From contig NZ_JACJQA010000027.1 in the NCBI RefSeq assembly GCF_014696355.1, forward strand, positions 186,001-250,000: a stretch of 64,000 nucleotides of DNA, read 5' to 3'. The notes beneath the pieces are model-generated. The model was given only the letters and a program-made list of their open reading frames with translations, made no database searches and was not told the DNA's origin. A program made the translations under genes and the position numbers. The DNA comes from Pseudanabaena sp. FACHB-1998 (lineage in GTDB: Bacteria; Cyanobacteriota; Cyanobacteriia; Pseudanabaenales; Pseudanabaenaceae). Shown here piece after piece: positions 31,301 to 61,190 of this stretch (positions are counted from its first letter, which is position 1; each line of letters begins with the position of its first letter).

Positions 31301-33458
31301 AAGCGAATTCATCCCTGGTGGAGCTAGCACGGGCAACCTTTCCACTACTCAGATCGGCGGTACTCTCACGATCGCAGTTCTTTCTAGCGGCAATGCTTTA
31401 CCTGCGGCGACAATTATCGGTGCTGGTGGTCGCGTACCTCCTAATCAAATCATCGACAACGACGGACTTACCTCCTTCGATGCAATCACCGATGGCATTG
31501 ACTTCTTTGAATCCCTCGAAGGAATGCGCGTCAATGCGAAAAACTTGCAAGCTGTCAGCGCTACTAATAGCTTTGGCGAAATCTATGCCGTTGTCGATAA
31601 TGGTTCAGGTGCAACGGGCTTGAGCAGTCGCGGTACGATCAATATATCACCCACTGACTTTAATCCAGAGCGCATTCAAATTGACATTGACAATGGTGTC
31701 TTTGACTTTGCTCTTCCTAATGTCAATGTCGGTGCGAAGATTGGCGATGTTACGGGTGTAGTTGGGTACAACTTCGGCAACTTTGAAATCATCCCCACAG
31801 AAGCATTTGGCAGCAACATCGTTGCTTCTACACTTCAGCCTGAAGTAACCACCCTCACCAAGAGCAGTGATACCCTCAAGGTTGCAACTTATAATGTTCT
31901 CAATCTTGATCCTCAATTGGAAACAGGTGTTGCGGCTGGCGATATCGATAATGATATCGCTAACGGAAGATTTGCCACGATCGCCCAGCAGATCGTCAAC
32001 AATTTGGGAACACCCGACATCATTGGACTGCAAGAAATTCAAGACAACAGTGGCGCTCAAAATGATGGCGTAACCTCAGCGAGCTTGACTCTACAAACTT
32101 TAGTTAATGCGATCGCCGCCGCAGGTGGACCCACCTATAAATTCATCGACAACACCTTCATCACTAATAACGCTAGTGGCGGTCAACCGGGAGCAAACAT
32201 TCGGACTGCCTTCTTATACAATGACGATCGTGTTGATTTAGTTGATGGTTCTGTCAAAACTGTTCCTAGCTCCTCTTTTGCCGCTTTTGCGGATAGCCGT
32301 TTACCATTGATTGCCGACTTCGCTTTCAATGGCGAAACCGTCACCGTAATCACCAATCACTTCTCATCTAAAGGTGGTAGCCGACCTCTATTTGGAACTA
32401 CTCAACCTTCCGTCGGTGATGAAGCCAATGGCAATGGACAAGAAAACGTTGCAATCAATGGTTCTCTCGATCAGCGTCGCGCTCAAGCTCAAGCCGTAAA
32501 CGATTATTTTGATAGCGTCTTGGCTACCAAGCTAGATGCCAAGGTCGTTGTTGTGGGAGACTTCAATGAATTTGAATTCATTTCGCCACTTAATATCCTC
32601 GCGGGTGGTGCTAATCCAGTGCTGACCAATCTCACCAATTCTCTTCCAGAGAACGATCGCTACACCTTCAACTTTGATGGAAATTCGCAATCGCTCGATC
32701 ACATTTTGGTTAGCAATAACCTAAGTGGCTCGGCAAAAGTGGATATCGTTAATATCAATACTGAGTTTGTGGATAACGCCCAACGCGCCAGTGACCACGA
32801 TCCGATTGTCGCAACGATCAAACTTGCACCTGCATCGCCCACATTGTCTTCTCTAGGAACAACAGGTGATGATGTCCTAGATGCACTTCCTAATCAATCC
32901 TTTGATGGTTTCAAAGACATCCTGTTTACAGGCTCAGGTAATGACAAAGTTAATCTTGGATTCGTTGCTGGTTTTAGCAATGCAGGTGATAATCGCATCG
33001 ATCTAGGTATTGGGAGCGATACGATTTTTGTCAACAAAGGCGATCGCCTATTTGGCAGTGAAGGGAATGACATCTTTGAAGCATCTGAAAGCAAAGGCGA
33101 CAACCGTATGTCTGGCGGTGCTGGCGATGACACTTTCTTCTTAGGATTTGGCGATCGCGCTCTTGGCGGTGACGGTAACGACAAATTCTTCGTTAGCTCT
33201 GGTGGTAATAACTTGTTATCAGGTGGTGCTGGCGCTGATCAGTTCTGGATTTTCAATATTTCTGCTCCCTTAGCAGCAAATACAATTGTGGATTTCCAAG
33301 CAGGAACAGATGTCATCGGTATTAATAGCGGAGGACTACTAAGCTTTGGGAATTTGACTCTTTCTGGTAATAGCCTTGCGATCGCTGGTAAGGCGATCGC
33401 CACATTTACGAATGTGGATGTTACTAGTTTGACATCTGCTAACTTTGTCTTTAAGTAA
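28374..33458 (+). CDS. giant multidomain secreted nuclease with RTX-like C-terminus
   Basis: This 1694-residue protein probably degrades extracellular DNA or nucleotides. Order: an N-terminal domain (about 1-210), an esterase-like or SdiA-regulated-type propeller (about 225-490), a cadherin-like module (about 495-600), a lamin-tail-like domain (about 605-765, FVTEVAPWSSG), a Calx-beta (about 790-900, NAAEAGTDTGTFRITR), an OB-like region as in ExeM (about 905-1150), and an endonuclease/exonuclease/phosphatase domain (about 1160-1480) with ATYNVLNLDP, IGLQEIQDNSG, VVVGDFNEFEF and ASDHDPIVAT. The end has glycine/aspartate repeats (GGAGDDTFFLG, GGDGNDKF) typical of calcium-binding RTX proteins. 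There is no signal peptide, so type I secretion is likely. Confidence 0.85.
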   Translation: MALTAGNIAFVGFNADGNDNIAFVALVDISAGETIIFEDNEWNGTGWVDTNEGAFSWTASSTVSAGTIVRIDNIGSGTIAATTGTVVDASVLAPSRGTNRGLGAGDEIIYAYQGTAAAPTFITAIANGGFNGTNGLLTNTGLTAGVNAINLSTLDDDADIAVFNAARSGQANFAAYLPIINNPTNWIAQDGTGDQSIDTTAPDVPFSSTAFTATPPAISSIDLSNYIRVGLFNLPVGAGALAEEVSAVTYNKDTDTLFVVGDEAKSIVQVSKTGQLIDSMTLNTGLFADTEGLTYVGNGQFVIADERVRTANLFTYAAGTTLTASNVQSVKLGTTVGNIGLEGITFDPLTNGFIAVKEENPLGVFQTTIDFTALTASNGSPTTVNSTDLFNPSLTGLSDFADVFAFSNLSPTSDRLLILSQASGKVVNVDRAGNISSSLTIVSAPGNGLTVIDQGFEGLTVDKNGILYLTSENGGTAPQLSVYAPSTVPNQAPTAVVLNNRVNALSEIESTLAPTRIANIAITDDQLGVNTLSLTGTDANSFEITGSSLFLKAGTVLDFETKPSFSVSVNVDDATLGNNPDATTAFTLNITDVVDETPLPVTSTSIFVTEVAPWSSGNSLVAADWFELTNKGTTSVNIAGWKVDDDSNSFVLGTTLSGITTIAAGESVIFIDSTNPNLTNPIFLTNWFGANPPANLKIGNYSGPGLGTGGDAVNIFNAAGVKQAGVTFGASPAASPFTTFDNSALLQNAAITTQSAVGVNGAFSVVNSQSITEIGSPGAIAASVVVSPTVTIAATDANAAEAGTDTGTFRITRTGATANALTVNYTVATGTGQAIGADYTPTLTGSVAIAAGQAFADIVITPVNDLLIEGSETVTINLTDTANYDLGATATATVTIADNDFPSKISTIQGASQTSPLVGQVVLAVPGIVTAVDSNGFYLQDPNPDANIATSEGILVFTGSAPTVKVGDSITVTGRVSEFIPGGASTGNLSTTQIGGTLTIAVLSSGNALPAATIIGAGGRVPPNQIIDNDGLTSFDAITDGIDFFESLEGMRVNAKNLQAVSATNSFGEIYAVVDNGSGATGLSSRGTINISPTDFNPERIQIDIDNGVFDFALPNVNVGAKIGDVTGVVGYNFGNFEIIPTEAFGSNIVASTLQPEVTTLTKSSDTLKVATYNVLNLDPQLETGVAAGDIDNDIANGRFATIAQQIVNNLGTPDIIGLQEIQDNSGAQNDGVTSASLTLQTLVNAIAAAGGPTYKFIDNTFITNNASGGQPGANIRTAFLYNDDRVDLVDGSVKTVPSSSFAAFADSRLPLIADFAFNGETVTVITNHFSSKGGSRPLFGTTQPSVGDEANGNGQENVAINGSLDQRRAQAQAVNDYFDSVLATKLDAKVVVVGDFNEFEFISPLNILAGGANPVLTNLTNSLPENDRYTFNFDGNSQSLDHILVSNNLSGSAKVDIVNINTEFVDNAQRASDHDPIVATIKLAPASPTLSSLGTTGDDVLDALPNQSFDGFKDILFTGSGNDKVNLGFVAGFSNAGDNRIDLGIGSDTIFVNKGDRLFGSEGNDIFEASESKGDNRMSGGAGDDTFFLGFGDRALGGDGNDKFFVSSGGNNLLSGGAGADQFWIFNISAPLAANTIVDFQAGTDVIGINSGGLLSFGNLTLSGNSLAIAGKAIATFTNVDVTSLTSANFVFK

Positions 33459-45300: not shown

Positions 45301-48198
45301 TTAGAAATTACCTGCTAATGCGCTGACGCAGCGATCGCATACATGCGGATGCTCGGTAGACTCACCGATATGCGTAGAGTAGTTCCAGCAACGGGGACAT
45401 TTATCGCCATCAGCTTTGACAACTGCAATCTTAAGGTTGTCGGTTTCACCCGTGAAGTCAGTAACAGGTAACTCTTCTACAATCTCAGCTTGAGAGACGA
45501 TGAACAGATAACGTAGTTCTGCACCGAGAGAATTTAGATAATCCTTTTGAGTTGCGTCTGATACAGATAGCAAAACTTTGGCTTCTAAGGGAGCGCCGAT
45601 CAGTTTGCCAGTTCTGGCTGCTTCGAGAACCTTATTTACTTCCGATCGCACTTCGCGAAGATATTCCCATTTGGTGGCAAGTTCGGGCTTGTGCCATTCA
45701 GAATGCACAGTGAACCAACCTGATTGGAAAACAGACTTAGTCGGTGCAGGATAGGGTAGGTATTGCCAGATATCCTCGGCGGTGTGGCTTAAAACAGGGG
45801 CGATCGCCTTGGCAATTGCCTCTAGGCAATACATCAATACAGTCTGGCAACTGCGGCGACGGGGCATATCGGGCGCACTGATATAGAGGCGATCCTTGGC
45901 AATATCCAAATAGAAGTTAGATAAATCGACTGTGCAGAAGTTTTGGATGGCTTGAAAGAATCGCGAGAATTGGAACTTGTCGTAGGCTTCGGTGATGTCT
46001 TTGGTGACTTCGGAGAGACGATGCAGGATATAGCGATCGCTTTCGGTGAGATCGGCATAGGGCACTAAATGTTCAGCAGGTTGAAAATCAAAGAGATTGC
46101 TGAGCAAGAATCTTGCCGTATTGCGAATCTTGCGCGACACATCGGACATTTGCGCCAAAATCGTCTTGCCGACAGGAACATCACTGCTATAGTCCACACT
46201 TGCCGCCCAGAGACGGATCACATCAGCACCGTATGGCGGTTCTTTCTTTTGGTCTTTACCGCCATTGATCACCACCATCGGATTGACAATATTGCCAAGG
46301 GATTTACTCATTTTCTGACCCTTCTCATCTAGCAAAAAGCCATGAGTTAGCACCGTCTTGTAAGGTGCGTAGCCATTGGTTGCCACGCTGGTCAAGAGGG
46401 ACGATTGGAACCAGCCACGATGTTGATCGGAGCCTTCTAGATAAATGTCCGCAGGATAGTTTAGTTCGTAGGGAACTAGCTTAGAATCATGGCTCTCACC
46501 ACCAAGTACGGCCGCCCATGAAGAACCCGAGTCAAACCAGACATCCATCGTATCCGTACCTTTGCGATACTTACGACCGTTATTTTTATAGGTTTCAGGA
46601 AGCAAATCTTCTACTTCCTTTTCCCACCAAACATCGGAGCCATATTCACAAATTAGTGCTTGAATATGGGTAACGGTTTCTTCGGTGAGTAGAGGCTCAT
46701 TAGTTTCTTCGTCATAAAAGACGGGAATCGGTACACCCCAAGTGCGCTGCCGAGAAATACACCAGTCTGATCGCTCTTGTACCATTGAGGTAATCCGATT
46801 CTCGCCAACCGCAGGAATCCAATTAACTTCTTTAATGGACTTTAAAGATTCCTCGCGGAAACCATCCACAGAGGCAAACCATTGCTCAGTGGCGCGAACA
46901 ATCACAGGCTTTTTAGTACGCCAATCGTAGGGATATTTATGGTTATAGGCTTCTTCTTTAATCAGAGTTCCATTCGCGGTCAAGATTTCCACAACTTTGG
47001 CATTACCTTCTTTGAGAACGCTCAAACCTGCTAATTCTTCCCCAGCATCTTCATTAAAAATGCCGCGATCATCGACAATGGAGATCATGCCCAGCTGATA
47101 TTTTCTGCCTACTACAAAGTCATCTTGACCATGATTAGGAGCCGTGTGGACTAAGCCTGTACCTGATTCGGCGGTAACATGATCGCCTAGCACAATTGGA
47201 CTAGGGCGATCGCTAATAGGATGTTTAGCGATTGTTCCTTCCAACACATCGCCTTTAAAAGTATATTTAACTTCCAAAGCTTGCTCAAAGGTGGCGGCTA
47301 GCTTCTCAACCAACTCTGTGGCGACGATATAGTTCTTGTCACCAGCAGCAACGATGCTATAGCTGAGATGAGGATTGGCGCTAATACCCAAGTTGGCAGG
47401 GATCGTCCAAGGGGTAGTTGTCCAAATTACAGCATGGAGATTATCAGGGGAGGCGATCGCCTCAAATATCGCTTTTAACTTCTCGCTAGATTGGGTGATA
47501 GGGAAAGCCACATAGATACTACGCGAAATATGATTTTCAGGATATTCCAATTCCGCTTCCGCCAGCGCCGTATGGGAACTGGGCGACCAGTAGACAGGTT
47601 TCAAACCACGGTAAATATAGCCTTTCAAAGCCATCTTCGCGAATACGCCAATCTGCGCTGCTTCATACTCAGGCTTGAGCGTATAGTAGGCGTTTTCGTA
47701 ATCACCCCACACCCCCAAGCGCTTAAAGACTCCCGCCTGTTCTTCAATAGTTTGCAGTGCAAATTCCTTTGCTCTTTGTCGCAACTGTAAAGGCGTAAGA
47801 TTAACCCGTTCTTCAGCTTTGATATTTTGCAAAACCTTAAGCTCAATTGGCAAGCCATGACAGTCCCAACCTAGGACATAGCGAGCTTTGCGTCCCCGCA
47901 AAAGTTGATAGCGATTAATAATATCTTTCAACGATTTGCCCAAGGCATGACCCATGTGCAGTGTCCCATTGGCGTATGGGGGACCATCATGGAGGGTAAA
48001 AATATCACCTTTATTATTAGCGCTTAATTCTTCGTAAATGCCCTGCTCTGCCCAAAACTTTTGAATCTCTGGCTCACGAATAATTGCATTTGCCCGCATC
48101 GAAAAGTCAGTTTGCGGCAAGTTAACGGTGTCCTTATATTCGCTTAATTCGTCAGGACTCGCGAGATTCTTTGATTTGGCTTTAGGAGCAGAGGTCAT
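45301..48198 (-). CDS. ileS: isoleucyl-tRNA synthetase
   Basis: This 965-residue class I synthetase charges tRNA-Ile. The HIGH signature is seen as DGPPYANGTLHMGHALGK (HMGH), the KMSKS loop as KMSKSLGN, and an editing domain between. The C-terminus carries a zinc-binding pair CPRCWNYSTHIG and HVCDRC, typical of the bacterial type. It is a single gene flanked by hairpins on both sides. Confidence 0.97.
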   Translation of the reverse strand: MTSAPKAKSKNLASPDELSEYKDTVNLPQTDFSMRANAIIREPEIQKFWAEQGIYEELSANNKGDIFTLHDGPPYANGTLHMGHALGKSLKDIINRYQLLRGRKARYVLGWDCHGLPIELKVLQNIKAEERVNLTPLQLRQRAKEFALQTIEEQAGVFKRLGVWGDYENAYYTLKPEYEAAQIGVFAKMALKGYIYRGLKPVYWSPSSHTALAEAELEYPENHISRSIYVAFPITQSSEKLKAIFEAIASPDNLHAVIWTTTPWTIPANLGISANPHLSYSIVAAGDKNYIVATELVEKLAATFEQALEVKYTFKGDVLEGTIAKHPISDRPSPIVLGDHVTAESGTGLVHTAPNHGQDDFVVGRKYQLGMISIVDDRGIFNEDAGEELAGLSVLKEGNAKVVEILTANGTLIKEEAYNHKYPYDWRTKKPVIVRATEQWFASVDGFREESLKSIKEVNWIPAVGENRITSMVQERSDWCISRQRTWGVPIPVFYDEETNEPLLTEETVTHIQALICEYGSDVWWEKEVEDLLPETYKNNGRKYRKGTDTMDVWFDSGSSWAAVLGGESHDSKLVPYELNYPADIYLEGSDQHRGWFQSSLLTSVATNGYAPYKTVLTHGFLLDEKGQKMSKSLGNIVNPMVVINGGKDQKKEPPYGADVIRLWAASVDYSSDVPVGKTILAQMSDVSRKIRNTARFLLSNLFDFQPAEHLVPYADLTESDRYILHRLSEVTKDITEAYDKFQFSRFFQAIQNFCTVDLSNFYLDIAKDRLYISAPDMPRRRSCQTVLMYCLEAIAKAIAPVLSHTAEDIWQYLPYPAPTKSVFQSGWFTVHSEWHKPELATKWEYLREVRSEVNKVLEAARTGKLIGAPLEAKVLLSVSDATQKDYLNSLGAELRYLFIVSQAEIVEELPVTDFTGETDNLKIAVVKADGDKCPRCWNYSTHIGESTEHPHVCDRCVSALAGNF

Positions 48199-48537: not shown

Positions 48538-49230
48538 TTAACTACAGGCAGTGTCTTTACCTGTTGACAAAGCCCCAAGCAAAGTTTGGATTTTGATCCA
48601 ACTTGTTCTTTTTCTACCTGTTGTATTAGTTGTCGATAAGTTAATGCAAATGGGAACTTGAGAAGATTTATAGATAAATCCACGGGAATCAAATTCAATA
48701 GTTACTGGGCTAAGCTGAGCATTAGGAGAAGTATTGTCGATCACCGATGCAATAGTGATGCCTTTTTCTAAGCTTTGTTCTACTCCAGAATCGGTGCGGA
48801 CATTGTCTAGACGTAAGGTTGCATCTGATGACGCGGAAAAAGTTGAAGCGGAAGATGTAAAGGTAATGCGCGATCGCTTGCTGTTAGTAACGGTTTGGGA
48901 GTCACTTGTTTGACGAACCTTGGCATCGGATTGAGCCGCCTTAATGGCCGCAAAGATTTTTGTTTGAGAAGAATTAAGGCGTTGATTGTCTACAAAACTA
49001 ACCCACGAAGGGGCCACGATCGCACTCAATATACCAATGATAATCATCACGACAAGGACTTCGATTAAAGTAAATCCTCGATTGGTATAGCGATCGCCAG
49101 AGGTTCTAGATGCATATACAAATTTAGATTTGCGCTTCATAGAGAAACTATGAGCCACCATCAGAACCAAACGGTTCAGGGATTTACTAAGTATTCTTAA
49201 AGGTAAACAACAAAAGTTATAAATAGACAT
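48538..49230 (-). CDS. hpsD: pseudopilin HpsD-like (GspH type)
   Basis: This prepilin-like protein of about 230 residues has a cleavage site G|FTLIEVLVVMIIIGILSAIV with Glu at +5, followed by helix and a beta-rich C-terminal domain as in GspH. I start it at 49230, where AAGGTGAATAAA precedes the ATG; that gives a 52-residue leader, and an internal ATG 22 residues before the cleavage site is possible. It is the last gene of an hpsA-B-C-D series, which in Nostoc is linked to polysaccharide secretion and gliding. Confidence 0.8.
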   Translation of the reverse strand: MSIYNFCCLPLRILSKSLNRLVLMVAHSFSMKRKSKFVYASRTSGDRYTNRGFTLIEVLVVMIIIGILSAIVAPSWVSFVDNQRLNSSQTKIFAAIKAAQSDAKVRQTSDSQTVTNSKRSRITFTSSASTFSASSDATLRLDNVRTDSGVEQSLEKGITIASVIDNTSPNAQLSPVTIEFDSRGFIYKSSQVPICINLSTTNTTGRKRTSWIKIQTLLGALSTGKDTACS

Positions 49231-49246
49231 TTTATTCACCTTAAAA

Positions 49247-50827
49247 TTAATTGGACTTAATACCAACACTGCTTCGACCAAAACTCCTTACATCGGCAGT
49301 AGGAAAAAATGAGATATTACTTTGCTTAGGCTGGCGATCGTTAAAAGGAATTGATAAACGTGCAAGGGCATTGCCACGCAAGAAAATCCTAACGCTTGTT
49401 CTCTCAGGAGCAACGCAGGCATAAAAGCTACTTAAACGTGAAGGATTAACCGTAGGACTCGCAAAATCTGGTGGAATTCTTTGAGTAATGACCCCAGAAG
49501 TAGTAGTTGAGGATGCAGGATTACTATTACCTACTCCAACGGATGCATCGTCACAATCAGGATTAGAAGGAGAAGTTACACCAGTAATAGTATTTGCAGC
49601 AACGTTTTTACCTACGGGAATGCTGATACCTGCTGAGGCAACAGCAGTTGAACCAGTGCCAGCAGCAGTACTGTTACCACCCTGAGCCGCCGTGTAGGCA
49701 GTATCATCCATAAAATCCACTAAAGTCACAAAAGGACTTTGAGTAAAATTATAGTTGTCAAACTGCTGCCATATTTTCGCGAGAGAAGTTAGAGTACCCG
49801 CTCCTGCAAAGTCAATGCGGTTAAATCCGGGGTCTGGACTGATGAAGTAATTAGTAGTATCTGTTAGAAAGATATTAGTTGTGCTGGAAGTCGTGCTTGG
49901 TGGCACAGGCGGAACGGTGACAGTACTAGAAATTATAAAAGGAGAAGTGGCATTAGGTCGTCTGGTTGTTGCTTTGTCTGTTGGACACTTGCTAGCATCG
50001 CTAATAGTTCCACCAGCACCACAAAACCATGTATATCCATCTTTTAGTTCCCACCGCAAAATTCGTGCTGTTTTTGACCAAGTATTACTAACTAGACTTG
50101 TATCGTTTTTGAGGTAGTAGGCAACCAAGGAATAAACATATCGGTTACCGCCATAGGGCGTAAGATATGGATTAGTAGCTGTTGATGTGGATTTGCAATT
50201 TGTCAGCAATGGTTGAGCGGGTACTACAGGCGAAGTCTGAGCGGCAATATCTATATAAGGCATACAGCCAATAAGCTCCGTTGATGGAGAAACTGAAGGC
50301 TTGCTATAGGTTCCTGTAGATAGAGGATCATAGGTATAGCGCTTCCAAAAGACTAAGATGGGAGTACAGGTAGTAGCGGTTTCAGTAGAACGAAAACATT
50401 CGTTTTCATTGTTTGTTGTACCCTGTTGAGCATGGGGTAATTGCCGAAAAATACCATCCTTAGCGGTTTTGTTAGCAGCACTTCCAGTTTCATCAGTTCC
50501 ATAGATACCTTCAGATCCATAAATGTAAATAGCTTCTTGCAGATCATCAGCGATGTAGTTAATGGCAGCTTGGAGTTCCTCTTGAGCATTTGATTTGGCG
50601 GTTTCCTTCCGATCGCTATCTAATACACCCACTAAGAAACCTAGTAGCGTTGTTACTAAAGCTGCCGCAATTAAGGAGGCAATTAATAACTCCAGCAAGG
50701 TAAAACCAAAGGCTAAACCTTGACGGCGATAGGTTTTGGGCGATCGCCTAAAAACTTGTCTCAATACCTTGGGCATAAGTAATTTAGGTAATCGTAACCC
50801 TAGTAGTCGGGAAAACAGATTTTTCAT
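49247..50827 (-). CDS. hpsC: pseudopilin HpsC-like (PilW/GspJ type)
   Basis: This 526-residue prepilin has a basic leader (RRSPKTYRRQGLAF), cleavage G41|F42 and Glu at +5 (FTLLELLIASLIAAALV). A long Ser/Thr/Asn-rich C-terminal region contains several Cys. It is much larger than ordinary GspJ. AGGATATCAGG lies before the ATG. It is separated by 21 bases from hpsB and 16 from hpsD, so the three are probably one transcript. Confidence 0.82.
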   Translation of the reverse strand: MKNLFSRLLGLRLPKLLMPKVLRQVFRRSPKTYRRQGLAFGFTLLELLIASLIAAALVTTLLGFLVGVLDSDRKETAKSNAQEELQAAINYIADDLQEAIYIYGSEGIYGTDETGSAANKTAKDGIFRQLPHAQQGTTNNENECFRSTETATTCTPILVFWKRYTYDPLSTGTYSKPSVSPSTELIGCMPYIDIAAQTSPVVPAQPLLTNCKSTSTATNPYLTPYGGNRYVYSLVAYYLKNDTSLVSNTWSKTARILRWELKDGYTWFCGAGGTISDASKCPTDKATTRRPNATSPFIISSTVTVPPVPPSTTSSTTNIFLTDTTNYFISPDPGFNRIDFAGAGTLTSLAKIWQQFDNYNFTQSPFVTLVDFMDDTAYTAAQGGNSTAAGTGSTAVASAGISIPVGKNVAANTITGVTSPSNPDCDDASVGVGNSNPASSTTTSGVITQRIPPDFASPTVNPSRLSSFYACVAPERTSVRIFLRGNALARLSIPFNDRQPKQSNISFFPTADVRSFGRSSVGIKSN

Positions 50828-50848
50828 GATCCTGATATCCTCATATAA

Positions 50849-51637
50849 TTAATTCCCAATGCCTTGCTTAATACTCTCGAGATTATTATTAATAGTGGGT
50901 AATATCTGAGCTCGCATTGTCACTAATGGACAAAGCCTCGAAGTGGTATTTGCAAAAGCTAGTTTATTTCTTACGCATTCAGGCTCATTCCCAGTTTTTA
51001 AAGTTAGCCCATTAGTCAAAGCATCGGAGCGATATACCCTCACGGCAAACCAAAAGCCACGATTATTGAGATCGCTAAAATTAGGATCTGATTGTGTGGG
51101 ACCACTTCTCATGGGTTGCACAAATAGATCTTGGGGATCGCCTACATTAAAGCCATTACCATTTGTATCCACACAGGCTCCCTTGACTGTGGCAACCCCA
51201 AAGACTGCTTGGGTCACCTGAGCGCAACTGGTAGTACTAGCAGAAATATTTGTCGTAATTGGTGGATTGATCGACTCAAAGGTATATTGAAACTGAGCAT
51301 TGGGAGCACTGGCAACAATGATATTTGGGAAAACCCCTGCATTAATGCCGCCGCCTCTCACTGCGTCGATATATGATCTTGCAGCTTGAGTGGCTTGATC
51401 TACTCGCCTAGCATTGATCCTGGCAGAGGTCGAGAGCGCAACCATCGGCGCGATCGCCACGATCACAATGCTCACAACTGCTACACCAACTAATGCTTCT
51501 AGTAGCGAAAAGCCAGTATCATCAGCACTCAAATTGCTAGACCTTCTTATCTTAAAGAGATGGGCAAGATAGGTAGATAGAAACATTTGAATCTTTGTTG
51601 GTTGATAGTCCATAGCTTTGCAATTTAGATCTAACAT
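50849..51637 (-). CDS. hpsB: pseudopilin HpsB-like (PilV/GspI type)
   Basis: This 262-residue prepilin has cleavage site G42|F43 with Glu at +5 (FSLLEALVGVAVVSIVIVAI). The C-terminal domain has a VRGGGINAGVFPNI segment and Cys residues that may bridge. Alternative starts lie at residues 9 and 18. It is positioned directly after hpsA, as in Nostoc. Confidence 0.8.
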   Translation of the reverse strand: MLDLNCKAMDYQPTKIQMFLSTYLAHLFKIRRSSNLSADDTGFSLLEALVGVAVVSIVIVAIAPMVALSTSARINARRVDQATQAARSYIDAVRGGGINAGVFPNIIVASAPNAQFQYTFESINPPITTNISASTTSCAQVTQAVFGVATVKGACVDTNGNGFNVGDPQDLFVQPMRSGPTQSDPNFSDLNNRGFWFAVRVYRSDALTNGLTLKTGNEPECVRNKLAFANTTSRLCPLVTMRAQILPTINNNLESIKQGIGN

Positions 51638-51676
51638 AACCCACCATCGTCAAGGTAAAAAGGATAGTAAAAAATG

Positions 51677-51727
51677 AATAAATTTATGATTTGCTTTACC
51701 TTTGGTAAAGCAAATCATAAATTTATT
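51677..51727 (-). terminator. perfect 24-bp palindrome with TTT loop between hpsA and hpsB
   Basis: It touches the last base of the hpsA stop codon and could attenuate the pseudopilin genes downstream. Confidence 0.65.
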
Positions 51728-54700
51728 TACTGATAAATAGAGCTAGGAACCGTGTTGCTAGTAGTAGTGCCATCACCACCATAGATAGTCTTTTTACAAT
51801 CACTACGCAGGTCACCACCACGCAAAGCACGTCTTACATAGTTGGTAGGTTCTGTACCTAAACTTTGCCTCAGGGTGGGATTAATCAACGCAGTGCTAGC
51901 ATTAGTAGCCGTCGGATCACTTGGTTCCAAAGCACAGAGCAGGGTTGTAATCCAAGGGTCATCAGCATTAACTTCTCGGAAGTATTCATTAGCCCCAGCG
52001 ATCGGTGACGCAAAGCGCTCTGCAAATAAGTCGGGTTGCTGCGTTAACAAGCCCACATCAAATCCCCACAAACGAATTGGTGGTGAGTAATAGGGAAGAC
52101 GATTAACAGTTACAGACATATATTGCAGGTTAAATCCACTAACATTGCGACCGTTAGATTGTCCAGACGTAGCTGGAATCGCAGGATTTAAGAATACGGT
52201 CAGCGAGTCGGCAACCGCTGATGTGCCGTAGTTAATAGGTGCTGTCGGTGAGTAGGGAGCTGTGGCAAATTTGCTCTTGGTATTTTGAATAAAACCACCA
52301 GAAATCTTCAGAGGAACGTCATCCCAGTTTTCTAGTAAGCGGATAAAGTTTGCTAGTCCACCACCTGTTTCACCAGTGGATATAGGAGTGTCGCTAGCAC
52401 TACCAGAACCATCAACCCAAATCGTGCTTGAAGTCTTATAGGGAACTCCATTTCTAGAAGGTGTCGTACCTGCTACAAAGTAGACATTTACTTCAGTTCT
52501 AACGGGGCGAATTGTCCATCGAGCCGTAGAATCATCGATCGCTGGGTTACCATTAATCCCTCCAAAAACTGAGGGAGGAGCAGGCTGAGAAATATCTTCG
52601 GAGGCATCAGTGGCTTTAGGTACATTAATCTGCAATACGGGCAGCAGATCAGGCTGATCAACCGAGGTCATCGCCACAAAGAGAGTTTCATTATTGATCT
52701 TTGCAGCATCGCCCCATAGACCAAGGAAACGCACGCCTCTAAACGAAGAAAACTTATTTCTTACTTGCATTACCGAAGTATTGTCTTCTGATGGCGTACT
52801 GGTAGCATCGCTAGTATTACCGAAGAAGTTGCCAGTCAGAATATTAGGATTACCTTGAGAACCCTCAAAAATAAAACTAGGCTCTGCTGCTAGTGCAAAA
52901 TCTTGACCGCCTGTGATATTCGTAATCTCAGCAGGACAACCACTAGCAGGGGTGGGTGGTGAACAGTCAACTTCAGGTTGAGGTGGCTTTAATAACGAAA
53001 CTCCAAACCTAGAAGAATTCCCATTGCTGCCGTTATTGTAAAGAACGTAATAAGTAGTATTCGCGCTTAAGGGAGCGGGAACTGGATTAGTCTTATTAGA
53101 AAAAATAAGACGCTGACCGTAAGCTATTCGGGGATCTTTACCATTCCCGGGAACGAGTAGGAACTTACCGCTACTGGTCTTAATATCTAATCGACTTTGA
53201 GTGCGCGATGATACCCAGAAGATGTTATTGGGATCGACTCCATCTAAACTAACTTGCAAGCCCTTAAAGTTAATACTTTCTTGGAAATCTCCTCTCAATA
53301 TAAATACAGGACTAGGGCCACGTCTTAAACTTGTTGCTGTACATGTGCTTTCTGCGGCTGTTGAGTCAGGATTAACACAATTAGCTCTAAAGGTAATCTT
53401 GCCTGTCAATTCGCGAGTGCCACCATCAAGGATGCCAATATTATTGAGGTTAAATACGTGGACTCTATTGTCGGCAAAAGTATTAATTGCTCTCAACGAT
53501 AAATCAATCGTACTAGTATTAGGAGATGTCCCTGTACCTAGATCCCTCGTGCCAGTGCCATCGGCTTTTTTGGTAAAGTCGGGCTGCAATCCTACAAAAG
53601 CAGCATTTCCAGGTAAGAGGTTGAGACTTAGTAAGCCACTACCACCTGATAAGGAGACTGTATCCTTTTTTTGACTACCAGTAGCTGTGGTTGTCGTTGT
53701 GGCTATCCTACCTACAAAATTACGAATTGCTCGACCGGGAGTTCCATCGCCCTGAGCGCAACTACCACCTGAAATATCAGTTTTACCAAGAACCGATCGC
53801 TCGATCGCTTGATACTTTCTGGTTCTGCCCGTACCACCACAAACGACAAAGCTAGTCGCGGGTTCCGTTGTACTCTGTACCCCAAAGCCTGATCCTGCAC
53901 CTGCTAGAGCGGTATTGTCTGAAGGGTAATGAGGATTGTAAGGAAGGTTGAGATTGAGCAAAGTTGGGACGCTGGCATTCGATTCGCCATCGGCAAAGGC
54001 ATTGCCAAAGGTATATTTTTTAGAAATACAGCGATCGTCTACCCGACCAGTCGTCAAATCCATACAAGGAGTCGGCGGTAAAATCAACGAACCCTTGCTA
54101 TTGAGATTGGCTCTCAAGGTTCCTGTATCACCAGCACCAATGAAGGGGAAGCTAAGATTATTAATAAATAAGTTTCTATCACTTTGATGACGAACAGATA
54201 CAGTCTCTCCTGGGAAGTCATTACTCGAAGCAGATGTGCGATACCATAACGTCCTACTCACCCTAGTTGGTCTAGTTCTTGTCATTTGCTTGGTGGTATC
54301 AGCCGCAGGATCATCGGAGTTACTAATTGGTCTGGTGAAGTTACCAGGCAACATCGGAATTTCACCACCTGCGGCAGGACGAGGCGGAATATTGGGGAAG
54401 ATGTCCGTTCTTTCCGTAGGGGAGTCTAAGCTCTGATTTCCATTAATATCGTCACCCCATACATAACGTCCGCCATTTGTACCTGAGCTTTCTGTGTTAG
54501 ACGGTGGATTAAATGGACGGAAGAAAATATCACCTGAAGCATGGGGGAAAGGATAAGCCGCAGCAGGAGCCATCATCGAGAAAGGCATTACTGAAGAGGT
54601 GGTCTGAAGTTTTGCAAATACTGGAGAGAATAAGGAACCTTCCCCACCGCCTTGTATAGGTGTGGGCGAAGGTGAAGGTGTGGGGGTAGGTGTAGTTGTA

Positions 54701-57700
54701 GGTGTAGGAGTAGGTGTGGGGGTAGGCGTAGTACAAGGAGAGGTGGCGTTGTCATCGTTATTCGTAAAGTTGAATGATACGAGACAAGCGGTAGTCTGAT
54801 TGTCAGTACGAATGCGTCCACGACGGATGGAACCGTTAGTTCCACCAGTACCATTATTTCCGGGAGTACCAGCTATATAACTAGCATTAGAGGGTCCTTT
54901 AATATTATCCAAGCTCAATCGGAACTCTTCATCTGCGCTTTCAGAAAAACTATCGCGAACAACCAAGACCGAAAGAATTTTTGTGTCAGGGTCACCATTA
55001 GTACCAGTAGTATCAGAAGAGCCTTTCCATGAAACTACAGTGCAATATAAGTTATTAGGAGATGTAGGACAGGTAGAATCCTCAGGATCAACGGTTTGGG
55101 CGCTAACTGCTCCTACACCTAGTCTTGGGTAGAGAGAACCCCTCGCGATCGCGGTCTGCAATCCATTTTTAGTCGTCAACGTGATGGGATTAGCCCCACC
55201 ATTGTAAATTCCACTCAAAAAGTCAGAGGGAATTGCCGAAACTGTCTGCGTTCCTGAACCTGTAGAAGTTGGGATAACCTTATTAGCATTAGCTAAATCT
55301 GGGGTGGTGTAGAGTTCTATGGTTGAACCCGATAGTTTTTTAATGTAGTAGGTTGTACTTGTCTCTAAGCCTGTAGGTAATGTCCCTGTAGTCGATAAAA
55401 TTACCGACTCTCCATCACTAAAGCTAGCGGTAGAAGAAGTAGAAGTGAGAACACCACCAGACGTAGAGGTAAAGGTAAATGAGGAGGTTGTACCATCAAT
55501 ACGGGAGAACTCATCACCCACTTTACCTGCAAAAGCACCTGTGTCAGTCCGAGGAGATAGGGTTACTTTTACCCTGACGACATCATTAGTGCCTAGGAGC
55601 GCTCTGTTGTTAAGCCTGAGATCAAAGTTAAATCTTCTATACACAGCATTGTTTGTACTGCGATTCCTTTCACCCGCGATCGCTTGACCACTATTATTAT
55701 CGTTACTGTTAGTAACAAAGCCAGTAGCAGGAATGACAACAGCAGTTGCACCATTGTTATTGCCAGCCCCTGCTCCCGTTGCCACCCAAGCAGTTTCAGG
55801 TGTGGGTAAGATATTAGAAGAACTAAGCAGAGTCTCCAAACTACCAAGAGAAGCGACTCCGGGAGATGCCAGACCATTGAAGTCACGACGGCGACCCTCT
55901 GCGGTATCATTGTCACCCGTTATTTCAATTGTGACTCCTCTTTCGGGGCAGGGAACTGTACCGAAACTGCTATTAGTATTATTACCTCTATTATCGCTAG
56001 TATTCGACAAATCAAAAGGAGTGTTTAAATTGCCAAATACATGGGGATAGGTGAAGCCAGTAGTAGCATCGTTGCCTTGTTCTACACCTAAAGCAATAGG
56101 ATATACCACAGCAGCAATATTAGAAGTTGGATTAGCGCAACTAGCGGCAAAAATAAGCTGCTGATTACCATCTTTGTAGATATCATCAAATCTCAAGAAG
56201 GATAGGCGACGTGCAAATCGAGAATTATCAGGTGAAATATAACGAGGAGCGCCTATAGGAGTAGTACCAGTAAGCCCTGTAGTTAATTCAGGTAAAGTAG
56301 TTGTACCAGCACCAGCCTTAACCCAATCCGAGAAAGTACATTCACTCGCAGGAATCTTGCTACAGAGTTCCATCCCATATTCACTAAAGCTAATCCGACG
56401 CTGAATTGGTGTTACACCATTCGCATTGTAGCTAGCAAGATTACCATTAACAGGAATCGTACTATTAGTAGCGGCTGGCCAAGTATTAGAGGTAGTACCT
56501 GTTTGTCCATCCGAGTTGAGACGGTTGAGCCAAGGACTACTAGTGACAAAGTTATTATTTAAGAAGCCAAAGCGACGGCGCTCCAATACATAACTACTGT
56601 CTTTTCTTGGTTCTCGCTTAGTCGCATCAAACAGATCTGGCAAAGTCGGATTAAGCTGAGATTGCCAGTTAATGCTAGTAGAAGTATTAGAGTTATTGCG
56701 AATATCATAGTCACCATCGGTGCGATAGCCATCTCTAAAATTAGCAGATAGAACAGTTACCGCATCCGCCAAAACTGTTGTAGGTCGCCATTGATCGCCA
56801 GTTACACAACCTGTTGTCTGAGCAGGACGACAGGCAAAATTTCCATCAAGCTTGTCATTAGGTCCATTGTCAGCGTGACGTTTATAGAAATTACTCCATA
56901 TACCATTAATATCAGCAGTATCTTCTTTGAGAAGTAGTGTAAATTCCTGTTTGGTATGTTTGTTAAATCCAGGGATAGTGGGGTTAGTTTCGTTAGTGGG
57001 AGTAGATGTAAAGGCAACACCAGGAGCATATTGCGCTCTAACATATACAGGCAAGTTAGAAACAAGCGTTAAACCCTTCTCTCCTTTAGTTTCTTCTGTC
57101 CATTTATAAGCCGTATTAGCGTAATTAGTATCAGAAAAAGCGACAGAACCATCAATTGTATTAGCTTGGGTTGATGTGAGCGTATTTAAAGCACTACGCC
57201 ATAGTCGGATACCATTAACTAGACGAATGGCACTAGGTTTTCGAGTAGCATCAAGGAGAAAATCTGTAGAGCTAAGGTTTTGAAGAACTTGATCGCTAGT
57301 TGAGCAAGGAAAGCCAATAGCAAGCCCAGTATTAGTACTGCTGGAGGAGGTACATACATAAATTTTCTGGTTTGGAGGTGCAAGAGGTGCAGGATCAGGA
57401 ACTTCAACAATCTGGTTGTAGTAGCTCAGATCGGCTAAAGCATCTTCGCGGGTTGCATAAACAATGCTGCTGTAGGGCAGTAGATAATCAGTAGCAATAC
57501 CGGGATTATTGCCGCCCTTAATCTGAGAGCCGCGCAGACGATCCATATCAATGTCCGTAGCACGAATTTCAAGAGGCTGGCGTTGCTCTAGCTCTAGATC
57601 ATAGATGTCACCTCGATTTTTAGTGACGACGGGTAAACCATTAGTAGCAGCAGTTGTACCCCGCGTATTGTTGCCAACACCAGCTTCAAATAAAGACTCA

Positions 57701-60700
57701 TTGCGATTAAGGGATTTAACTTCTCTACCATCAAGGAAAGCACTCTCTCTAAAAGCTCCGTGAGGGATTTGTGCCGAGGTTACGCCTGTAACAGTAACAC
57801 CTGCGGGGGTAGCTACGGTGATGGTTGCAGAGGTAGAAGAACTATTGGCAACATTGATAGTTCCATCAAGGATTTGCAAGGCACACAGGTTGGAATCGAG
57901 GGTAGACTGTTGAGGTAAGGTTAGATTGGCGTTGGGGGTAGCACTAAGTTTAATTAATACATTACGGAGAGACTCATTGGCAAATCTACCATTGGGGAAC
58001 ATGAGATTGGCTTGGTAGAGAAGCCTATTTTCATAAGTAGCACTACTCCTAGGGTTTCTCGCAGTGTCATCAGAGATAGTGAATAGCCCTGTAGATGTAC
58101 TATATTTACCTGAAAAATTAGAAGTAGTCAGATTCTTAGCAGTTAAGCCAACTTGATACACAATCCCGTTATTAGATCGCCCACCTGCGGCAGTGTTCCA
58201 AGGTAAGGTGTATGTTGTATTATCTGGTTTTGTGAAAGTGGTTGAATTCTTGGCTGTGGCGGGAGTTGATGGGTCGTAATAGCTACTTACACAGGCGATC
58301 GGGACTTGGTAATCAGTAGGGGTTGTAATCGCGTTGTAAGCATCGTATTTGTAGTGATAAATTGCCGAGGCTCGCATTTGCAGGTCGCCTTTGCGAGTGT
58401 CGAGCGAGTTGCCACTAGTCATGGGCATGGAGTCTTGCCAGACGATATAGTTGCGCGAAGCTTTACCGCGATCGTCACTGGTATTGTCACTTGGTGCGGC
58501 AAAGTTTGTCTCATCGATAGAAGTAATGGGATTATCAATGGGTTCTCCATTCCACAGAGGCGCACTTGATTCATCAAAACCAGTAGTGGAGATATTGTCA
58601 GAAATACCTGTGCGGAAGTTAGGCAAGAATGTATCGGCTGAGCGGCGGCTGTAAATACCAGCATTGGTGACGACACGTAAACCTCCCGACCTAGGCGAAA
58701 GTGTAGAAACGTTAGCGCCTGCGGTAAAAGGATCGGCGGCGGAAGTAGAATAGGCAGCAGCAGCAATTTCCCAGAATCCACCGCGATCAGTAACGCCTAA
58801 ATTACTCAATGGCGTAGATTGACTGAAACGATACCGTTCAACTGTACTCGGATTAGCAGGAGTAGTTTTATCGTTCCAAAATACTAAAGCTGAAGGGTCA
58901 GTGGAAATTCGATTTCGCGATGTTCCACTAACAAATTCTAATCGGTTATTGCTGGCATTAAATCTCAACCATTTCGCGGGAAAACTATTACCAACCAGTA
59001 CGCGATCTCCTAAGAGAATTTCATTATCAGTTGCAACAATATCAGGATCGACTGCCGATAGATTTAAGGTTCTATTGGTAGATGAACCAGTAGTTAAGAG
59101 AGTGATGCCATTTACGCTGGTAGTCGTACTGCCGACATTAGTAGTAATAGTATCTTTAAGCCCCCCTTTGCCATCAAACCCTGCTCCTGTAGTCAGGCTA
59201 AAACTTCCTACTGATTTCCCAAAGTTATCATTATCATAGTTTGGCAAAGTCCATTCGACAATTGGGGATAAGTCGGAGGGTTGACCAGGGACTGGAATTG
59301 GCGTAAGTAAGGTTGTAGGTAGGCTCGGATTGGCTCCAAAAGCAACATCACGGAATGAGACCTTACGAACTCTTTCGCCAAAGTAGGCAGTAAAGGCAGC
59401 CCGTCTAGCAGTATTGACCTCTGCTTGAGAGAGAGCTTCTTCTTGAATCCGCTTGACAAGATCCTGTTGAACAGACAGAGGATCACTGTTACTGGAGGGA
59501 CTGTAGGCAAGATTACTGGTGTTAAAAGTTGCGGTAATTGTGCTCGGAATCGTGACCGTACTACGGGCGATCGCAGCCTCAACAAGTACGCCAATGCGAC
59601 GGTTATATTCAAAATCATTGAGGGCTAAATCAGAACTCTTATTCTTAGCCACGGTACTATCAACACTTACCGTAGAGTTAGCCCGAATCGCCGAATCGGT
59701 GATGAGTTTTGTCCCGCCCGTGACTGTATCAGGTGGAGAACCTGCACCTTGGAACAAATGTACTTTGACAACGGCTGCGGTTAGATTACTTGCATTAGAC
59801 AAATTATTCAGATCAAAGGAGTCAGAGTCTTCTGAGAGCAAACTTGTGTTATCAGCAACTGCATCGCCTTCTACAACATTACCAGCAACTACAATTTCAC
59901 TATTCTTTTTTAAGTAATAACAAGAACCAAACAATCGAGAGTCGGAGGTCTTTCCAGGAGGAGAATCTATAGATCCCCCCGAGCTACTAACTTGATAGAA
60001 AGTTATCGGGCTACCAATATTTAGAGATCTATTCTTTCCTGCCCCAACCATTAAGTTACCAGCACTATAGACCCTACCATTGAGTCGAAAAGTGGCAATG
60101 TTTACCAGTTCTGTATCTCCTTCAAAAAATACAGCATTGTTGTTTTGAGGAGAACGAGCACGGTCTTGTTGTAACTCAATCGCACTAATAGAAGTTACAC
60201 CTTTGTATAGTTCATATTTGTCTAATTGGTTATTACTAGCATTGGTCGGATAGCTAGCGGTATCTGTAATAGGGACAGTTACGGCATAGACAAAAAATGC
60301 TTTCTTTAAACGATTATCACTAGATAGAGTCCATCCACCATCCCCCGCAATATTCGAGACACCTCCAGTAGATACACATGCTCCCGAAAGCGTCGTTTCA
60401 TCCATCGGTAGAGTACGAGATTCAATGGGCACAATCGGGCGATCAAGGATAGATGGAGGGCGTGCACGGAAGAGAATACTATAAATGCCATAGGAATCAA
60501 ATAGACCATTATTATCTGTATCTACTGGAAACTTCCAAGCACTCGACACATATTCTCTATTTTCGATTTTAGAGTCACTGGTATTAATTTTATTATCAGG
60601 CTTTGAAGTGGTAGAAGTAGGATCGCGAAAATCGTAAACAATTTGTAAACGAGTCTCATCAGGGAAAGTATATTTACCAGTATCGTTGGTGATAACGCTG

Positions 60701-61098
60701 TCTAAGGTAATTTCAGGTGGTGTGGCGCGACCTAATTTACCGTCATTTAATAATGCATCAATTTTGGAACGGGCGCGATCGACTACGGGAGTTGCGGCGC
60801 TTCTAAAGACCTGCTCTACACGAGCATTTGCCGCAGTTTTAGCCCTCTCTGAGGATCTGGCTACGGTTGTCACTACGAGCAAGGTGACCACGAGAGTCAC
60901 TAAGGTAACGGTTGGTAGTACAAAGCCTGCTGCTTTGCCGATCGCTTTGCGTTGCCCCCGTGAAGCTCCTAATAATTGCCGTACAAAACGCCGACTAATG
61001 CGAATAGGACTACCGATCGCATTTAGCCATTTTCTTAACTTGGCGATAAATTCGGCAAAAAAGCGATTAATTTTACGGCTTTGCTTGGAATCAGACAT
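51727..61098 (-). CDS. hpsA: giant HpsA-like surface/pseudopilin protein
   Basis: This 3123-residue protein resembles HpsA of hormogonium-type motility systems. A basic N-terminal arm (RRFVRQLLGASRGQRKAIGK) leads to a prepilin-like helix G58|FVLPTVTLVTLVVTLLVV, but the usual Glu at +5 is Thr63. A coiled segment follows (SSERAKTAANARVEQVF). The rest is a long Ser/Thr/Asn/Gly-rich series of beta modules with a Pro-Thr linker near 2130 (PTPTPTPTP) and a Calx-beta-like stretch. The ATG at 61098 is preferred to an upstream TTG at 61110. It heads hpsA-B-C-D on the minus strand. The function is inferred from family and synteny. Confidence 0.78.
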   Translation of the reverse strand: MSDSKQSRKINRFFAEFIAKLRKWLNAIGSPIRISRRFVRQLLGASRGQRKAIGKAAGFVLPTVTLVTLVVTLLVVTTVARSSERAKTAANARVEQVFRSAATPVVDRARSKIDALLNDGKLGRATPPEITLDSVITNDTGKYTFPDETRLQIVYDFRDPTSTTSKPDNKINTSDSKIENREYVSSAWKFPVDTDNNGLFDSYGIYSILFRARPPSILDRPIVPIESRTLPMDETTLSGACVSTGGVSNIAGDGGWTLSSDNRLKKAFFVYAVTVPITDTASYPTNASNNQLDKYELYKGVTSISAIELQQDRARSPQNNNAVFFEGDTELVNIATFRLNGRVYSAGNLMVGAGKNRSLNIGSPITFYQVSSSGGSIDSPPGKTSDSRLFGSCYYLKKNSEIVVAGNVVEGDAVADNTSLLSEDSDSFDLNNLSNASNLTAAVVKVHLFQGAGSPPDTVTGGTKLITDSAIRANSTVSVDSTVAKNKSSDLALNDFEYNRRIGVLVEAAIARSTVTIPSTITATFNTSNLAYSPSSNSDPLSVQQDLVKRIQEEALSQAEVNTARRAAFTAYFGERVRKVSFRDVAFGANPSLPTTLLTPIPVPGQPSDLSPIVEWTLPNYDNDNFGKSVGSFSLTTGAGFDGKGGLKDTITTNVGSTTTSVNGITLLTTGSSTNRTLNLSAVDPDIVATDNEILLGDRVLVGNSFPAKWLRFNASNNRLEFVSGTSRNRISTDPSALVFWNDKTTPANPSTVERYRFSQSTPLSNLGVTDRGGFWEIAAAAYSTSAADPFTAGANVSTLSPRSGGLRVVTNAGIYSRRSADTFLPNFRTGISDNISTTGFDESSAPLWNGEPIDNPITSIDETNFAAPSDNTSDDRGKASRNYIVWQDSMPMTSGNSLDTRKGDLQMRASAIYHYKYDAYNAITTPTDYQVPIACVSSYYDPSTPATAKNSTTFTKPDNTTYTLPWNTAAGGRSNNGIVYQVGLTAKNLTTSNFSGKYSTSTGLFTISDDTARNPRSSATYENRLLYQANLMFPNGRFANESLRNVLIKLSATPNANLTLPQQSTLDSNLCALQILDGTINVANSSSTSATITVATPAGVTVTGVTSAQIPHGAFRESAFLDGREVKSLNRNESLFEAGVGNNTRGTTAATNGLPVVTKNRGDIYDLELEQRQPLEIRATDIDMDRLRGSQIKGGNNPGIATDYLLPYSSIVYATREDALADLSYYNQIVEVPDPAPLAPPNQKIYVCTSSSSTNTGLAIGFPCSTSDQVLQNLSSTDFLLDATRKPSAIRLVNGIRLWRSALNTLTSTQANTIDGSVAFSDTNYANTAYKWTEETKGEKGLTLVSNLPVYVRAQYAPGVAFTSTPTNETNPTIPGFNKHTKQEFTLLLKEDTADINGIWSNFYKRHADNGPNDKLDGNFACRPAQTTGCVTGDQWRPTTVLADAVTVLSANFRDGYRTDGDYDIRNNSNTSTSINWQSQLNPTLPDLFDATKREPRKDSSYVLERRRFGFLNNNFVTSSPWLNRLNSDGQTGTTSNTWPAATNSTIPVNGNLASYNANGVTPIQRRISFSEYGMELCSKIPASECTFSDWVKAGAGTTTLPELTTGLTGTTPIGAPRYISPDNSRFARRLSFLRFDDIYKDGNQQLIFAASCANPTSNIAAVVYPIALGVEQGNDATTGFTYPHVFGNLNTPFDLSNTSDNRGNNTNSSFGTVPCPERGVTIEITGDNDTAEGRRRDFNGLASPGVASLGSLETLLSSSNILPTPETAWVATGAGAGNNNGATAVVIPATGFVTNSNDNNSGQAIAGERNRSTNNAVYRRFNFDLRLNNRALLGTNDVVRVKVTLSPRTDTGAFAGKVGDEFSRIDGTTSSFTFTSTSGGVLTSTSSTASFSDGESVILSTTGTLPTGLETSTTYYIKKLSGSTIELYTTPDLANANKVIPTSTGSGTQTVSAIPSDFLSGIYNGGANPITLTTKNGLQTAIARGSLYPRLGVGAVSAQTVDPEDSTCPTSPNNLYCTVVSWKGSSDTTGTNGDPDTKILSVLVVRDSFSESADEEFRLSLDNIKGPSNASYIAGTPGNNGTGGTNGSIRRGRIRTDNQTTACLVSFNFTNNDDNATSPCTTPTPTPTPTPTTTPTPTPSPSPTPIQGGGEGSLFSPVFAKLQTTSSVMPFSMMAPAAAYPFPHASGDIFFRPFNPPSNTESSGTNGGRYVWGDDINGNQSLDSPTERTDIFPNIPPRPAAGGEIPMLPGNFTRPISNSDDPAADTTKQMTRTRPTRVSRTLWYRTSASSNDFPGETVSVRHQSDRNLFINNLSFPFIGAGDTGTLRANLNSKGSLILPPTPCMDLTTGRVDDRCISKKYTFGNAFADGESNASVPTLLNLNLPYNPHYPSDNTALAGAGSGFGVQSTTEPATSFVVCGGTGRTRKYQAIERSVLGKTDISGGSCAQGDGTPGRAIRNFVGRIATTTTTATGSQKKDTVSLSGGSGLLSLNLLPGNAAFVGLQPDFTKKADGTGTRDLGTGTSPNTSTIDLSLRAINTFADNRVHVFNLNNIGILDGGTRELTGKITFRANCVNPDSTAAESTCTATSLRRGPSPVFILRGDFQESINFKGLQVSLDGVDPNNIFWVSSRTQSRLDIKTSSGKFLLVPGNGKDPRIAYGQRLIFSNKTNPVPAPLSANTTYYVLYNNGSNGNSSRFGVSLLKPPQPEVDCSPPTPASGCPAEITNITGGQDFALAAEPSFIFEGSQGNPNILTGNFFGNTSDATSTPSEDNTSVMQVRNKFSSFRGVRFLGLWGDAAKINNETLFVAMTSVDQPDLLPVLQINVPKATDASEDISQPAPPSVFGGINGNPAIDDSTARWTIRPVRTEVNVYFVAGTTPSRNGVPYKTSSTIWVDGSGSASDTPISTGETGGGLANFIRLLENWDDVPLKISGGFIQNTKSKFATAPYSPTAPINYGTSAVADSLTVFLNPAIPATSGQSNGRNVSGFNLQYMSVTVNRLPYYSPPIRLWGFDVGLLTQQPDLFAERFASPIAGANEYFREVNADDPWITTLLCALEPSDPTATNASTALINPTLRQSLGTEPTNYVRRALRGGDLRSDCKKTIYGGDGTTTSNTVPSSIYQ

Positions 61099-61190
61099 AA
61101 CTTTTACCAACCTGACTGCAATATACTACCCAAGACAGACCCAAAATTAACGACAAAATTAAGGAATTTAATTTTATAGCCGTCGCCATA

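Follow-up and report, generated by a model that had tools for sequence, protein, structure and literature searches.

The hpsABCD locus and its prepilins

Four adjacent genes, hpsA, hpsB, hpsC and hpsD, occupy positions 48538-61098 of the window, the whole 64,000-nucleotide stretch of DNA that was analysed in this study, and all of them lie on the minus strand (Table 1). The scores of HpsA and HpsC are above the cut-offs of their NCBIfam families (400 bits in the case of NF038301), and that of HpsB is under its cut-off of 150 bits. The glycine that ends the HpsA leader is numbered 58 because the ATG at 61098 gives a protein of 3123 aa; an in-frame TTG at 61110 is an alternative start, which extends the ORF to 51727-61110 and the protein to 3127 aa. 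The real start of hpsD probably lies inside the listed ORF. The flanking ORF 45301-48198, judged by reading, is presumably an isoleucyl-tRNA synthetase-like gene, and further neighbours are genes for a small membrane protein, a protein with a fasciclin domain and a CO2 hydration protein. Genes for glycosyltransferases were not recognised adjoining hpsA-D in the window, and therefore the four genes are here separate from the polysaccharide-making hps genes. In Nostoc punctiforme, hpsA-D, unlike hpsE-G, track the same sigma factors as the pilus genes (PMC6495340), in keeping with a role in the pilus. Elsewhere in the window, the plus strand at 28374-33458 encodes a 1694-aa protein with SdiA-regulated, lamin-tail, endonuclease/phosphatase and RTX-like segments.

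Table 1. Genes of the hps locus and segments of HpsA, with positions in the window
Feature	Position	Strand	Description
hpsA	51727..61098	(-)	3123 aa from ATG; NF038301 1106.6 bits; K-type minor pilin candidate
HpsA leader	60925..61098	(-)	58 residues, Gly last; predicted PilD cleavage after Gly58
HpsA mature alpha1	60748..60924	(-)	59 residues, Thr5, Arg23-Ser24; AF2 single helix 3-59
HpsA N-terminal pilin-like head	60103..60924	(-)	alpha1 and antiparallel strands, predicted
DTDNNGLFD calcium-loop-like motif	60496..60522	(-)	in the head, mature residues 135-143
Conserved HpsA core	56149..60123	(-)	profile match to 1222; beta-solenoid predicted in short homologue
Extra segment of ~1150 aa, TP-rich linker	52708..56148	(-)	profile gap between 1222 and 1279
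HpsA conserved C-terminal part	51727..52707	(-)	profile 1279-1487; predicted returning strand
hpsB	50849..51637	(-)	I-type minor pilin (weakly), Glu5; NF038303 127.2 bits, PilV 0.0011
hpsC	49247..50827	(-)	J-type minor pilin, Glu5; NF038304 220.1 bits, GspJ 5.9e-5
hpsD	48538..49281	(-)	H-type minor pilin, Glu5; GspH 2.4e-10, TIGR02532 2.1e-9

The starts of HpsB (G/FSLLEALV), HpsC (G/FTLLELLI) and HpsD (G/FTLIEVLV) are those of prepilins, and in a whole-genome scan all three proteins, each with Glu5, passed TIGR02532, confirming the normal prepilin helices that an earlier note on this DNA had described in them. The same note likened the three proteins to GspI, GspJ and GspH, respectively. Curated models bear out two of these likenesses, since GspH is the nearest Gsp relative of HpsD and GspJ that of HpsC (values in Table 1), which makes them H-type and J-type. 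HpsB, however, is closer to PilV than to GspI, which matches it weakly (0.062), so that it can be assigned to the PilV/I-type only weakly. As is expected of a K-type pilin, hpsA is encoded together with H-, I- and J-type minor pilins, and at least three Glu5 prepilin genes lie directly downstream of it in 99 of 112 testable loci, a partly redundant set in which some genomes were fetched twice. In one genome (locus L035, 510-17814) there are two tandem hpsA genes, each followed by Glu5 pilins. The place of hpsA at the 5' end counts against a K-type assignment, however, since a minor pilin of the first-subunit type is typically encoded at the 3' end (PMC5207764).

The N-terminus of HpsA and its relatives

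HpsA starts with G/FVLPTVTLVTLVV, in which Gly(-1) and Phe(+1) stand immediately ahead of a hydrophobic helix and Thr occupies position 5, as the earlier note had observed. The frame is a family trait: G-1, F+1 and P4 are constant in all 132 distinct starts, which were drawn from two samplings, one of about 25 families and the other of 79 named Nostocales loci, and were found with a pattern that itself demanded G and P. All full-length HpsA sequences matched this pattern, which missed only a single fragment that lacks its N-terminus and two sequences with GFIIPT. Such a Gly/Phe/Pro4 frame is far beyond chance. The residue at +5 is Thr in 128 of the starts, Met in two, Leu in one and Val in one, with Glu in none. 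Glu5 is absent from HpsA and present in its partners HpsB, HpsC and HpsD, which is the K-type pattern. PilX and GspK are also without Glu5 (PMC7541494); where a single minor pilin is oversized and lacks Glu5, it is the mark of the first subunit (PMC5207764), which remains at the tip in systems of both type IVa and type II (PMC5207764, PMC7541494). It counts against the comparison, however, that HpsA has Thr at +5 instead of the usual hydrophobic residue. Arg23 followed by Ser, Thr or Ala is nearly constant in HpsA, with Arg23 in 98% of HpsA versus 1% of Glu5 pilins, and the leader in the window is basic and conforms to a class III signal.

An HMM of the K-type N-terminus was built from five K-type pilins that were picked by PilX_N and not by HpsA. 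Its mean score is 31.7 bits for the HpsA starts versus 3.3 bits for 419 Glu5 minor pilins, and its median is -0.2 bits for 1644 other membrane-helix segments, a null set cleared of missed HpsA and Glu5 pilins. The best of these segments is outscored by 111 of 124 HpsA, and the best-scoring segments resemble further K pilins. With the two most HpsA-like K sequences taken out of the model, HpsA has a mean of 16.7 bits and the Glu5 pilins 2.0 bits, and 112 of the 124 HpsA are over the 99th percentile. Alignment of the HpsA N-terminus with an eight-sequence K set by hhalign gave 97.8% over 58 columns. All these comparisons place the N-terminus of HpsA nearer to K than to other pilins. Against PilX_N (PF14341) the N-terminus of the window HpsA scores 16.0 bits, below the cut-off of 25.5 bits, and the best E value among 48 HpsA is 0.0025; genuine H-I-J-K neighbours reach 13.3 bits and do no better than HpsA. 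In a six-frame whole-genome scan HpsA is the top PilX_N-like frame of its own genome, and HpsA or a counterpart of about 850 aa takes this place in 13 genomes. The PilX_N matches to HpsA start at profile position 1-2, which is the Gly. These results bear on the proposal of HpsA as an ordinary membrane protein, single-pass and uncleaved, in which the likeness to prepilins would be convergent. HpsA carries the annotation of a hypothetical membrane protein (PMC6495340), and the curated pilin models all stay below their cut-offs. However, G-1 and F+1 are absolutely conserved where the helix begins, and HpsA is separated from the 1644 other membrane-helix segments, so that this proposal is hardly credible.

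The counterparts of about 850 aa belong to other cyanobacterial families and match HpsA in two segments. Judged by these matches they are homologous to HpsA, although a profile alignment of HpsA with this family covers just 84 columns near the C-terminus. They stand last in an H-I-J-K gene order and are without Glu5. HpsA over its cut-off is absent from all genomes with the full-length ~850-aa form, a mutual exclusion that tracks phylogeny and is only suggestive. Relatives of 844-853 aa stand fourth in an H-I-J-K order similar to that of pilA9-pilA12 (slr2015-slr2018) in Synechocystis and, by order and size, would correspond to Slr2018/PilA12, a type that differs from HpsA in its length of about 850 aa and its place at the 3' end. 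The pilA9-pilA12 genes are needed for flocculation and motility (PMC6755745, PMC12288463). We dropped the idea that HpsABCD is always the sole H-I-J-K set: in one relative (G231, locus L231, 6360-9925) genes for a PilX-type protein of 505 aa and for three Glu5 pilins lie directly upstream of hpsA and form a second K-I-H-J-like set. Two further loci encode PilX_N proteins of 484 aa (L232, 6503-7957; G/FALPM..) and 517 aa (L233, 6457-8010; G/FVMPM..), whose sequences form a bridge between PilX and HpsA; Glu5 pilins were not recognised beside them.

Size and predicted fold of HpsA

Most full-length HpsA have about 1100-1850 aa. A genus-specific insert of about 1150 aa (residues ~1655-2800), which is rich in Ser, Thr, Gly and Asn and includes a TP-repeat linker, makes the HpsA of the window about twice as long as usual. 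The HpsA of a same-genus relative (L033) is of nearly equal total length (3158 aa), for the same reason. Some 3000 exposed residues, which the earlier note had attributed to HpsA, are a peculiarity of this genus. A Calx-beta or other known domain was considered for the insert and rejected, as a Pfam search of it returned no match. In the head, a D-x-D-x-N-G-x-x-D loop occurs in strict form in 86 of 132 HpsA, versus 0.02 expected by shuffling, and in relaxed form in 129 of 132. With GspK also having calcium sites, this calcium-loop-like motif may serve as a lead, not as proof.

AF2 modelling of a complete 1157-aa HpsA from Dolichospermum (74 sequences) gave a pLDDT of 80.6 and a pTM of 0.79. 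The predicted order is a membrane helix, a second part of alpha1, antiparallel strands, a solenoid and returning C-terminal strands. When this model was compared with 509 chains by VIA, ComZ came first (369 residues, rmsd 10.5, the alignment ending at model residue 1125) with a Z of 7.3, which is modest and within the range often reached by unrelated models. The runners-up were solenoids of ice-binding proteins, which alone reach 6.8. Foldseek returned nothing significant for the full 1157-aa model. The head of the window HpsA is predicted as a single 57-residue alpha1 with antiparallel strands; it counts against a pilin fold that this head alone gave nothing significant in Foldseek and no pilin match in VIA. 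Therefore, the evidence from the fold consists of the predicted layout and the rank of ComZ. Sequence-profile searches of the PDB with N-terminal, full-length and 850-aa alignments found no meaningful match. ComZ of Thermus thermophilus (PDB 6qvi, PMC6561018) has a pilin head with a beta-solenoid before the last strand, an arrangement that the predicted layout of HpsA resembles, and its solenoid was also likened to ice-binding proteins by its authors (PMC6561018). Like HpsA, it is without Glu5 (Gly5 in ComZ), is accompanied by small minor pilins and has been proposed as a tip subunit (PMC6561018). However, ComZ has about 550 aa and binds DNA, HpsA has 1100-3100 aa, and the two show no significant sequence match.

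The size and the head fold also matter for the reading in which HpsA is cut by PilD through its class III signal, yet stays outside the filament as a surface protein, either anchored in the membrane or released. It is doubtful that a protein of this size passes the secretin, and the head is without a firm pilin match. On the other hand, hpsA is constantly linked to genes of the H, I and J types and the N-terminus is K-type and not generic, which would be unexpected in such a protein, and we consider this reading very unlikely.

HpsA as a candidate tip subunit of the type IV pilus

The genome has one prepilin peptidase (PilD) and one secretin, the latter within a pilM-N-O-Q operon, and a search with NF037980 (cut-off 130 bits) found no GspK in the genome and no match to HpsA. 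The prepilins found are two PilA-like proteins, one lone H-like protein, HpsB, HpsC and HpsD. No complete core minor-pilin set other than HpsABCD was detected in this genome, where prepilins are easily missed. The earlier note had proposed, by analogy with type II secretion, that HpsA caps the pseudopilus as a GspK-like tip subunit. The place of HpsA as the K-type, Glu5-less member of an H-I-J-K set is supported, whereas the type II framing is not supported in a genome with a single secretin in pilMNOQ, one peptidase and no GspK; PilX of type IVa pili and ComZ are therefore closer models. GspK does share with HpsA its oversize, the lack of Glu5 and, by prediction in the case of HpsA, a tip position with I and J, an insert in the head and calcium sites (PMC6211770), but its insert is helical instead of a solenoid and it needs type II machinery, which was not found here. 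PilX (PMC7248040, PMC7541494) is likewise the sole Glu5-less member in the K place with H, I and J, and it is akin to HpsA by the N-terminal HMM. In contrast to HpsA, which falls under the PF14341 cut-off, PilX is far smaller and works with PilY1. A search for PilY1 as an alternative tip protein gave no match in 292 genomes, with the controls also silent, and is uninformative.

It might also be argued that HpsABCD form a separate, short type II-like pseudopilus, capped by HpsA, which works as a piston and pushes slime through the pilus secretin, apart from the PilA pili. HpsB, HpsC and HpsD have been called pseudopilins (PMC4284469) and fit the Gsp minor pseudopilin models as well as the pilus ones, and less polysaccharide is released when PilB or PilQ is lost (PMC7690835). 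However, the sole secretin lies in pilMNOQ, a second secretin and GspK are missing from the genome, slime may be carried by a Wza-type exporter, and slime secretion is not the motive force (review PMC12288463). We regard such a piston as unlikely.

The motif, the operon context, the N-terminal HMM, the homology with the ~850-aa family and the ComZ-like predicted fold are five lines that all point to a K-type HpsA, in a genome with type IV pilus genes and without type II machinery. We consider HpsA likely to be the K subunit among the core minor pilins of the type IV pilus, of the PilX/GspK/ComZ kind, with HpsB (I), HpsC (J) and HpsD (H) as its partners. PilD would cut HpsA after Gly58, and the helix that starts at mature Phe1 would pack first. 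We propose that HpsA can do without Glu5 since it has no subunit above it. The other three, HpsB, HpsC and HpsD, would dock beneath HpsA through their Glu5 and prime the assembly of PilA, so that HpsA would both prime and cap PilA pili and carry a large ligand-binding module. Its solenoid would be held at the tip, outside the secretin, where the ligand would most likely be motility slime or another surface ligand.

We speculate, with considerable doubt, that HpsA may even act as a giant hook at the pilus tip, its solenoid gripping hormogonium polysaccharide or sheath while retraction pulls on slime laid by the filament. If this is true, one subunit would unite pilus and slime, which have been held as rivals for cyanobacterial gliding. 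HpsA has so far been known only through slime-and-gliding genetics. HpsABCD as a K-I-J-H set would give a direct and testable answer for filamentous species, tie these to unicellular species with their pilA9-12 type and offer a physical connection between pili and slime. In modular pilins, such as PilB of Streptococcus sanguinis (PMC8179133), a large module is also carried on a small pilin and fits only at the tip, as would be the case in HpsA, but there the module follows the pilin, unlike in HpsA. The extreme multi-domain case in the survey of these pilins has 860 residues (PMC8179133), and HpsA would rank among the largest pilins proposed.
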